DNA of 64,000 nucleotides from Massilia soli. GTDB lineage: Bacteria; Pseudomonadota; Gammaproteobacteria; Burkholderiales; Burkholderiaceae_D. Positions 2,472-6,057 of this stretch are shown here, in pieces. Position 1 is the stretch's first letter. Every line of letters starts with the position of its first letter. Below the pieces are notes generated by a model. The model was given only the letters and a program-made list of their open reading frames with translations, ran no database searches and was not told where the DNA came from. A program made the translations under genes and the position numbers. The stretch lies in the NCBI RefSeq assembly GCF_016809835.1, contig NZ_JAFBIL020000002.1:186001-250000 (forward strand). The letters are read 5' to 3'.

Positions 2472-4724
2472 TTACCTGGCCACCGGCGCCGGATAACACG
2501 CCACCTCATCCTGCATCGGCTCGCCGCGCTGCATCAGGAACCTGCCCAGCGCATCATCGAGCGTCGGCAGCAGCATCGCTCGTTCGCTATGCAGCGCCGT
2601 GTACAGCGGCCGCGGCGCCGCATAGGCAATCATTGACCCCGGCTGCGCTTCGAGCCGGCCCGCATCCACGCCGGCCAGTCCGGCCGCCTTGTTGGCCAGC
2701 TCCACCCAGCTGATCGGATGGCCGTTGGTCAGGTGCCACACGCCACATTCGCGGTCGATCATCAAGTCCAGGCAGGTGTTGACCAGGTCCGGCACATAGG
2801 TCGGCGAGACCACGATGTCGCTGGCCGCCTTGAAGGCCGCGCCGCCGCCCAGTGCATGCAACGCCTGGTTGACGAAATTGTGCTGGTCCCACGGTCCGAA
2901 GAACGAACTGGTGCGTACGACCAGCGCGCCCGGATGCCGTTCCAGCACCGAGGTTTCAGCCTGCACCTTGCTCTTGCCATAGATATTGATCGGCGACACC
3001 CGGTCACTCTCGACATACGGGTCATTCTGGCGCCCGTCGAACACCAGGTCGCTGGAGAAGGTGGTCAGGTGTACGCCGTGGCGTGCGCATGACGCCGCCA
3101 GCACCGCGGGGCCATGGGCATTTTCGCGGAAGCAGCGTTCGATATCGGTCTCGGCATCGTCGACCCGCACATAGCCCGACGCATTGACCACCGCCCATGG
3201 CTTGTAGCGGTCCATCGCGCGCTCGACCGAATCAGGGTCGGCAATGTCCATGTCGTGGCGGCCAAGCAGCTGGTAGGCCAGGCTGCGCTCGCGGCACAGC
3301 CGTGCGAACGCGCGCCCCAGCGTGCCGGTCGCGCCGGTGATCAGGATAGGGCGCACCTGTTTGCCTACCAGGCGATGGCCATCGGCGGAGATCGAGGTCA
3401 GCGCCAGCGGCGTGGCGACCGGCTGGCACACGAAGCGCTCGGTGCGGCGCCACCATCCCTGGCCGCGCAATACCGGGTGCGACAGCGGCGTACCGTCGGC
3501 CAGCTCGCGCATCATGTGCGCCAGGGCGGTTGGACGCGGCTCGGGCGAGCGCACATCGAACGGCCCCGATTCGTAATAGCCGTGGTTGCGTGTGACGAGA
3601 CTGTTCCAGTCGAACGAGCCGAGCAGCGCCCAGACCGTGATCGCGCGGATATCCACGCCGTTGAGCTGGGCCTGCTTGCCGGCTTCCCAGATTTCGAGCA
3701 GCCAGCGCAGCTGGTCTTCGCGGTTGGCGTCGATGTGCGCCTCGGTGACGGCCAGCGGAATCTGATAGCGGTCCCATGCTTCTTGCAGGAGCGGGCCGAT
3801 GCCGGCCGTTGGCGTTGCCAGCACGCGTGCGCACTCGATATCCGCGCAGGGCACGCCAGCGATGTTGCCGCGGTGGTGCTCCGGGTAGCGCTCGGGCCGG
3901 TGATCGAGCCAGCGCTCGCTGGTAACGTAATAATTGACGCCGATGATGTCGGGAGGGCAGGGATGATCGCGGAACCAGAGAATCTCGGTCTCCGGGATGC
4001 CGCTGTCGATCAGGTAGTTCCATAAGGCGTGGTCCGGGCCAACCATGCCGCACAGCAGGTCCCAGCCCAGCCAGCGCCGTTCGTTGTAGAACGCGGCGGC
4101 GTCGGCCATCTCGCGGGTGCTGTAGGTTTTTCCGAGGTCATCGGTCTGCACCAGCTTGGCGTCCGGATTGTGCTTGCGAATCTCCTGCATCGACAGCACC
4201 ACGCCGCGGCACTGGATCAGCAAGGCTTTCAGGAACGTCAGGTCGTCGCGGCCGTGGGGATACCAGAGGCCATACAGGCCGGAGAAGCGCGCGGTGGTGA
4301 GCGGCTCGTTGACCGGGGTGTAGTACTCGACCCACGGATAGCGCTGGGCGACGGCGCCGGCGTAGTCGGCCAGCTGCGGCGCGAAGGCCGGGTCGACCAG
4401 GCTGGTGTGGCGCGGGCCGCTGCCGTGGTGCACCAGGCCGACGATCGGGTTGATGCCGGCGTCGCGCAGCGCCGGCAGGCGCTCGTCGGGCCATTCCCAG
4501 TCGGCATCGGCGATGCCGTTGGGCGCGGTGCGTTCCCACAGGATCGGGTAGCGGATCGCGCGGATGCCGAGCGCGGCAAACTGGGCAATGTCGTCGAGCC
4601 GGTGGGCGTGGCCATTGCGGTCCATCTGGCTGTGATAATCGTCGTAGACGCGATTGACTGTGCATTCGAGGCCGCCCCACAATTGGAGCGGCGCGCTTGG
4701 TTCAAGCTTGTTAGTGTTATTCAT
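2472..4724 (-). CDS. Glycosyl hydrolase family 1-like / RmlD-like sugar-nucleotide reductase fusion
   Basis: A 750-residue two-domain protein. Residues about 12-420 look like a GH1-type (beta/alpha)8 glycosidase: TPVNEP places the likely acid/base Glu at 140 and VTEAH the likely nucleophile Glu at 328. Residues about 458-745 form an RmlD-type extended SDR domain with GATGTLG at 464-470 and YGKSK (Tyr582, Lys586), as in dTDP-4-dehydrorhamnose reductase. No signal peptide is visible, so it is probably cytoplasmic. The two activities suggest a role in sugar or glycan metabolism, but the substrate is unknown. The start is an ATG at 4724 with a weak binding site. The gene stands alone, with REP-like hairpins downstream. 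Confidence 0.85.
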   Translation of the reverse strand: MNNTNKLEPSAPLQLWGGLECTVNRVYDDYHSQMDRNGHAHRLDDIAQFAALGIRAIRYPILWERTAPNGIADADWEWPDERLPALRDAGINPIVGLVHHGSGPRHTSLVDPAFAPQLADYAGAVAQRYPWVEYYTPVNEPLTTARFSGLYGLWYPHGRDDLTFLKALLIQCRGVVLSMQEIRKHNPDAKLVQTDDLGKTYSTREMADAAAFYNERRWLGWDLLCGMVGPDHALWNYLIDSGIPETEILWFRDHPCPPDIIGVNYYVTSERWLDHRPERYPEHHRGNIAGVPCADIECARVLATPTAGIGPLLQEAWDRYQIPLAVTEAHIDANREDQLRWLLEIWEAGKQAQLNGVDIRAITVWALLGSFDWNSLVTRNHGYYESGPFDVRSPEPRPTALAHMMRELADGTPLSHPVLRGQGWWRRTERFVCQPVATPLALTSISADGHRLVGKQVRPILITGATGTLGRAFARLCRERSLAYQLLGRHDMDIADPDSVERAMDRYKPWAVVNASGYVRVDDAETDIERCFRENAHGPAVLAASCARHGVHLTTFSSDLVFDGRQNDPYVESDRVSPINIYGKSKVQAETSVLERHPGALVVRTSSFFGPWDQHNFVNQALHALGGGAAFKAASDIVVSPTYVPDLVNTCLDLMIDRECGVWHLTNGHPISWVELANKAAGLAGVDAGRLEAQPGSMIAYAAPRPLYTALHSERAMLLPTLDDALGRFLMQRGEPMQDEVACYPAPVAR

Positions 4725-4850: not shown

Positions 4851-4879
4851 TTGACAGACAGCGTCTACTCTGTAACGAT
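4851..4879 (+). promoter_or_regulatory. Predicted sigma70 promoter of the trpS leader
   Basis: A consensus -35 (TTGACA) lies at 4851-4856. The -10 is weaker, best read as TAACGA at 4873-4878 with a 16-base spacer. Transcription would then start around 4885, almost at the leader ATG at 4886. That would explain why no convincing ribosome binding site precedes that ATG. Confidence 0.5.
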
Positions 4880-4885
4880 GCTGGG

Positions 4886-4930
4886 ATGAATCTATTCCGC
4901 TCACAAATTGCTATCTGGTGGCGTCGCTGA
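4886..4930 (+). CDS. trpS leader peptide with tandem Trp codons (14 aa)
   Basis: A short ORF reads MNLFRSQIAIWWRR and stops with TGA at 4928-4930. Two consecutive TGG codons (4916-4921) lie just before the stop, followed about 36 bases later by an intrinsic terminator hairpin and then trpS. This is the classical layout of a ribosome-mediated attenuator. When charged tRNA-Trp is scarce, a ribosome should stall on the Trp codons and favour readthrough into trpS. The peptide itself is expected to have no function. The ORF, codons and order are seen directly; the regulatory role is inferred. The start may be leaderless or weakly initiated. Confidence 0.65.
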   Translation: MNLFRSQIAIWWRR

Positions 4931-4966
4931 CAGCGCGCGGCCGTTCCACAGCAATGTGATGCTTTT

Positions 4967-4996
4967 AAACGCCGCCTCGATTTGGGCGGCGTTTTT
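4967..4996 (+). terminator. Attenuator terminator hairpin before trpS
   Basis: A perfect 10-bp stem (AAACGCCGCC at 4967-4976 with GGCGGCGTTT at 4985-4994) closes an 8-base loop and runs into a short T tract. It lies 38 bases before the trpS start and would stop transcription there unless disrupted. GGTGGCGT at 4917-4924, which includes the Trp codons, can also pair with 4969-4976 (one G-U), so the terminator arm has an alternative partner. A small CGCT/AGCG hairpin (4925-4935) overlaps the leader stop codon. Confidence 0.75.
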
Positions 4997-5034
4997 GTTG
5001 GCGCGGCACATCGGGGCAATCCAGAGGATTTACG

Positions 5035-6057
<1,023 letters not shown>

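Follow-up and report, generated by a model that had tools for sequence, protein, structure and literature searches.

A putative Trp-codon attenuator ahead of a TrpRS-II gene in Massilia-like Oxalobacteraceae

How trpS is regulated in a Massilia-like member of Oxalobacteraceae is the question raised by the stretch of DNA analysed here (64,000 nucleotides, hereafter the window), in which a short reading frame with two adjacent Trp codons, followed by a hairpin, lies between a promoter and this gene, whose product is 98% identical to TrpS of Massilia polaris. A preliminary description of this DNA had suggested that a Trp leader peptide controls trpS by transcription attenuation, and our analyses indicate that this reading was largely right: with a probability of about 0.86, a ribosome-mediated transcription attenuator controls the gene, which belongs to the TrpRS-II class, the layout being conserved in relatives and the structures switching with ribosome position in silico.

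All elements of the proposed attenuator lie on the forward strand. The promoter consists of a TTGACA -35 element (4851-4856) and an AACGAT -10 element (4874-4879) with a 17-nt spacer, and is followed by a leader ORF of 14 codons, MNLFRSQIAIWWRR (4886-4930, stop codon at 4928-4930), for which homologous short ORFs exist in relatives. The ORF is probably leaderless, because its ATG at 4886 is placed only 6 nt past the -10 element. An adjacent pair of Trp codons (4916-4921), recognized by sequence and conservation, constitutes the putative sensor; further downstream, a hairpin (4967-4977 with 4984-4994) carries a T run (4992-4996), which is followed, after 38 bases, by trpS (5035-6057, 340 aa). 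The -35 element, the 14-codon ORF, the position of the Trp pair and the 38-base distance had all been listed in the preliminary description and are present in the sequence, as are the hairpin and its T run, although the helix given there as 10 bp has 11 pairs in the fold. Neither the promoter nor the terminator was listed by a simple consensus scan of the window (the -10 element matches 3 of 6 positions, and the scan requires 4); therefore, the case rests mainly on conservation and comparison. The divergent neighbour on the minus strand (2472-4724) is a 750-aa ORF that, judging its translation by eye, resembles a glycosidase fused to a sugar-nucleotide reductase.

For the RNA from 4886 to 4997, the computed folding energy is -45.9 kcal/mol (z -4.17), and none of 200 dinucleotide shuffles is as good. 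Region 1 (4916-4928), which comprises Trp, Arg and stop codons, pairs in the fold with region 2 (4932-4943), and this 1:2 structure is enclosed by an outer helix whose 5' side (4899-4912) pairs with 4950-4962. Alternatively, region 2 can pair, via GCGGC (4937-4941) and 4943-4945, with region 3 (4968-4975), which is common to the antiterminator (2:3) and the terminator (3:4); the core of the 2:3 pairing joins 4937-4941 to 4971-4975. This is the antiterminator that we propose, and that had earlier been left to be worked out; taken alone, the stretch 4930-4983 is no more stable than its shuffled versions (z -0.81, with 39 of 200 matching it or better). As previously pointed out, the segment over the Trp codons (4917-4924) is complementary to 4969-4976 in the terminator arm and able to pair with it, which had been regarded as a departure from the textbook order. 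The order is nevertheless textbook after all: in the folding of the window, the main partner of this segment is region 2, its possible pairing with the terminator arm is predicted to lose to 1:2, and the arm is rarely paired upstream when no ribosome is present.

The latter was assessed in folds of transcripts ending before region 4, in which the ribosome footprint was blocked and pairing was averaged over six core bases of the terminator 5' arm. In the window, the probability that this arm is paired upstream was 0.06 without a ribosome, rose to 0.89 when one stalled at the first Trp codon and was 0.12 when it had reached the stop. For these three states, the means were 0.32, 0.87 and 0.30 over 72 close sequences; 0.59, 0.36 and 0.27 after shuffling the stretch from the stop to the terminator; and 0.82, 0.98 and 0.18 over 23 more distant rows, which keep the arm paired even without a ribosome, a behavior that counts against the attenuator model. 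Stalled values were stable for footprints of 11-17 nt, and the stop value of the window requires a footprint of at least 13 nt, the arm being still paired at 0.61 with 11 nt and at 0.37 with 12 nt. The stalled value exceeded the stop value by more than 0.5 in 41 of the 72 close rows vs 21 of the 23 distant rows, the difference being weaker in 31 of the close rows; no switching was seen in these folds for L104 and L108, and many rows of Duganella and Rugamonas with a single Trp codon switched less cleanly. The locus L027, which has no Trp codon, was left out of these folds and of the leader alignment, and L117, whose WW leader is plain in its upstream region, was left out of the folds and of the strand-swap test described below. 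In these models, the 1:2, 2:3 and 3:4 structures are mutually exclusive by ribosome position. Folding of the full leader with ribosome masks gave no switching: whenever region 4 was included, the terminator formed in all the states folded, and switching appeared once region 4 was left out of the transcript. Therefore, the antiterminator would have to form ahead of the terminator, as it does in the trp attenuator of Escherichia coli.

From these elements we infer how transcription starts and terminates, in what order the structures form and how charged tRNA-Trp acts on them. The transcript would begin at the leader ATG or next to it and, being leaderless, would be bound directly by a ribosome. 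When Trp-tRNA suffices, the ribosome would pass both Trp codons, reach the stop and cover region 2, upon which regions 3 and 4 would form the terminator and RNA polymerase would halt near 4996. When Trp-tRNA is scarce, the ribosome would stall on the Trp codons and mask region 1, so that region 2 would pair with region 3 while region 4 is still to be transcribed; the terminator would then fail, and trpS would be transcribed.

Conservation was assessed in the best 80 of 354 loci, here termed the named loci. A layout of promoter and short ORF, searched as TTGAC, a spacer of 16-18 nt, a -10 element with A at position 2 and a final AT, and a start codon 4-10 nt further on, precedes trpS in 72 of these best 80; 50 of the leaders are WW, 21 have a single W and one (L027) has no W, and the pattern search found no such element in the other eight of the 80 named loci, seven from Collimonas and one from Glaciimonas. 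The spacing is tighter than the pattern allowed: TTGAC with a spacer of exactly 17 nt occurs in 72 of the best 80, and across 73 rows including the window, the distance from the -10 element to the ATG is 6 nt in 52, 7 nt in 20 and 5 nt in one, with AACCAT (66), AACGAT (4), AAACAT (2) and AATCAT (1) as -10 variants. The leaderless start, raised earlier as a possibility, gains support from this short distance of 5-7 nt in all 73 rows, and Trp leaders of the leaderless type have been reported from S. meliloti (PMC7298713) and S. lividans (PMC8079986).

Regarding the structures, GCGGCC (region 2) and GCCGCC (region 3) are invariant in all 70 distinct aligned leaders; in this alignment, the terminator helix is paired in 95.7% of cells and the outer helix in about 70%, with covariation of the latter not above shuffles. 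Within the family, covariation in the MAFFT alignment was no better than in shuffles (score 0.090 vs 0.088; 142 of 500 shuffles as high), and that of the antiterminator was below them (0.048 vs 0.065), its 2:3 core pairs never varying. The alignment of relatives that had been suggested as a check returned conserved Trp codons, but not compensatory changes exceeding shuffles. Two variants were observed among the close relatives. The Duganella/Rugamonas clade (L009, L010, L011, L025, L045 and others) has one Trp codon followed by Arg codons and the stop, with no WW. In six of ten Janthinobacterium loci (L031, L040, L041, L066, L078 and L079), leader and hairpin are kept and GGCGTAACAGG replaces the T run; therefore, termination there would need another route.

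Beyond the close relatives, 40 upstream regions from other genera or lower identities of the family were chosen by hand, not at random. A W-bearing leader was found in 24 of them, WW in 20 and without adjacent W in four (L104, L107, L108 and L140), and many of the leaders end in HWWRA before the stop, with TATACT just upstream. Another 48 loci were fetched via class and phylum searches (13 further matches of 38-40% were left out), those of the same class and another order being taken to be Gammaproteobacteria, and those of the same phylum and another class Alphaproteobacteria. Of the 48 loci, 28 reach 56% identity with the window protein, and a WW leader stands before 19 of them, a leader with a single W before one (L168) and none before eight; a WW leader was found in none of the 20 loci below 56%. 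Short ORFs ending near a W and lacking WW (e.g., L143, L162 and L164) were taken as chance. Conservation of the Trp codons and the terminator stem, on which the preliminary description had hinged its reading, holds in most close relatives and also before more distant TrpRS-II genes.

Because covariation was not above shuffles, a strand-swap test was made across lineages on the core 1:2 stem, which directly follows the Trp codons and which 75 of the 76 distinct sequences retain, its letters differing across rows (CGCTCT with AGAGCG, TGCTCT with AGAGCA). With strands swapped between rows, the stem formed in 74%, the rate being 42% among the rows that the class and phylum searches contributed and 85% in Oxalobacteraceae rows; given the latter figure, most of the core-stem signal comes from the distant rows, and the alpha/gamma group of this test includes three loci (L163, L166 and L172) that share their family or order with the window. 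A tree was built from 59 TrpRS proteins; in one of its clades (support 99/93), 43 of the 52 rows have the leader, and they are scattered over the deep branches, which suggests, as a reading of the tree, that the leader is ancestral in that clade and was lost in some lines. A search with model R1 gave matches at E 0.01 in 202 of 392 family genomes and, in 229 genomes of the class, the own genome of the window plus 16 weak matches (best 2.8e-4); the more distant leaders were missed by R1 and were found by reading the 40 hand-chosen upstream regions. Five loci (L179, L180 and L182-L184) have WW leaders of gammaproteobacterial type without a clear T-run terminator, and their trpS Shine-Dalgarno lies inside an ATCTCC/GGAGAT hairpin with an open probability of 0.06-0.17.

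The alternative that best survives these data keeps the same Trp leader and sensor, with a mainly translational or Rho-dependent readout in which the hairpin is one arm of the switch. It would suit the six Janthinobacterium hairpins without a T run and the Shine-Dalgarno hairpins of the five loci just mentioned; in the window, however, the hairpin is strong and directly followed by five T, and the Shine-Dalgarno openness of those five loci was unchanged by the ribosome positions folded, with no translational switch seen, so that we consider this readout unlikely.

Less probable still is a free-standing small RNA gene similar to RcsR1, merely preceding trpS and acting in trans. The window contains a match to Rfam RcsR1 (33 bits, E 9.7e-5), and RcsR1 is described as a trans-acting sRNA (PMC5977203); nevertheless, the gathering score of this family (RF02552) is 60, a scan of the whole own genome at E 0.001 came out empty, the element accompanies TrpRS-II genes in many lineages, its T run in the window ends only 38 bases before trpS, and a review puts RcsR1 itself at the trpL attenuator (PMC7143759). 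An sRNA role and an attenuator role could coexist. Below-threshold Rfam matches to anti-hemB, asX2 and snR99 were taken as chance or terminator likeness. Finally, a constitutive promoter with a leftover terminator or a chance ORF, and no regulation, would fit the loss of the leader in Collimonas, Glaciimonas and several hand-chosen regions, where it is hence dispensable, but deserves hardly any credence, as Trp codons, spacing and the competing pairings that exclude one another are all conserved.

Protein comparisons place the attenuated gene in the TrpRS-II class rather than TrpRS-I, its best solved relatives being 1yi8 (E 8e-116) and 2a4m (E 2e-114; named tryptophanyl-tRNA synthetase II), which we take to be Deinococcus radiodurans proteins. 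The own genome holds a second gene, a TrpRS-I of 400 aa (L082; G000 C1:55090-56271), with which the window TrpS shares 42% identity over residues 13-189. No WW short ORF was found upstream of this TrpRS-I gene, nor in any of 20 hand-picked TrpRS-I upstream regions, two of which held only 141 and 162 bases. According to counts tallied from match listings, a TrpS2-type gene occurs in 105 of 195 genomes of the family sample and is the sole match in 45 of these 105; an R1 hit is present in 47 of the 105, with TrpS2 as the only match in 27 of the 47, hits being counted as attenuators only at E <= 1e-10, by E-value alone and whatever their position relative to trpS. Before trpE of the own genome (L142:1245-1376, contig C11), a 28-codon ORF, MFFIKKHNVTQAGSIEAWLWRRWQSWAK (1245-1331), has four Trp codons and is followed by a hairpin and a T run, and is probably a separate Trp attenuator for trpE.

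Compared with known systems, the element shares the 1:2, 2:3, 3:4 pairing logic and the tandem Trp codons in region 1 with the E. coli trp attenuator, which differs in serving a biosynthetic operon and in having a Shine-Dalgarno-led leader, whereas that of the window precedes trpS and is probably leaderless. Trp leaders before trpS are known in Streptomyces and Caulobacter, and the window attenuator is therefore of an already known kind. A leaderless Trp leader peptide precedes trpS in S. lividans (trpL2-trpS; PMC8079986), an attenuator was predicted upstream of S. avermitilis trpS2 (PMC1262725), and an auxiliary TrpRS gene of Streptomyces is reported to be under attenuation (Vecchione and Sello 2010, as cited in PMC4787780). 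These cases resemble the window in the Trp leader peptide and the attenuation of a TrpRS gene, leaderless in S. lividans and auxiliary in the 2010 paper; however, they belong to Actinobacteria, the leader of S. lividans contains a single Trp codon and lacks a U-rich tract (PMC8079986), and sequence kinship with the window is not established. The leader CDS before trpS of Caulobacter crescentus, known from ribosome profiling (PMC4117421), is also a short translated ORF, but a putative leader without a worked-out switch in that source. In S. meliloti, trpL (rnTrpL/peTrpL) encodes a leaderless 14-aa leader with Trp codons before trpE(G) (PMC7298713), and RcsR1 is located at this attenuator according to the review (PMC7143759); it is similar in leader type, in attenuating a Trp gene and in the weak Rfam RcsR1 likeness of the window, and differs in controlling trpE(G), not trpS, and in the trans-acting roles shown for S. 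meliloti. In the open-access literature we found neither a betaproteobacterial trpS attenuator, an earlier prediction elsewhere being possible, nor a wide tie between the WW leader and TrpRS II.

More broadly, and with somewhat less than even confidence, we propose that the WW-leader attenuator goes back to the ancestor of proteobacterial TrpRS-II genes and has been inherited along with them, which would make TrpRS II a self-sensing backup switched on when tRNA-Trp charging fails, be it by starvation, a TrpRS poison or heavy tryptophan use. The readout would be transcriptional here and perhaps translational in some gammaproteobacteria, and the terminated leader RNA and peptide may act in trans like rnTrpL/peTrpL. 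The backup reading is tempered, since TrpS2 is the sole match in some genomes and a second copy in others. For Burkholderiales, our results provide a worked-out, testable attenuator model for an aminoacyl-tRNA synthetase gene, in which a very short peptide, read by the ribosome, serves as the sensor and an RNA switch is expected to raise trpS when loaded tryptophan-tRNA is short; they also predict short leader RNAs and Trp-rich micropeptides overlooked by annotation. Taken together, the TrpRS-II link and the absence of the leader before the sampled TrpRS-I genes suggest why many bacteria keep a second TrpRS, namely as a reserve enzyme whose gene senses the enzyme's own product.
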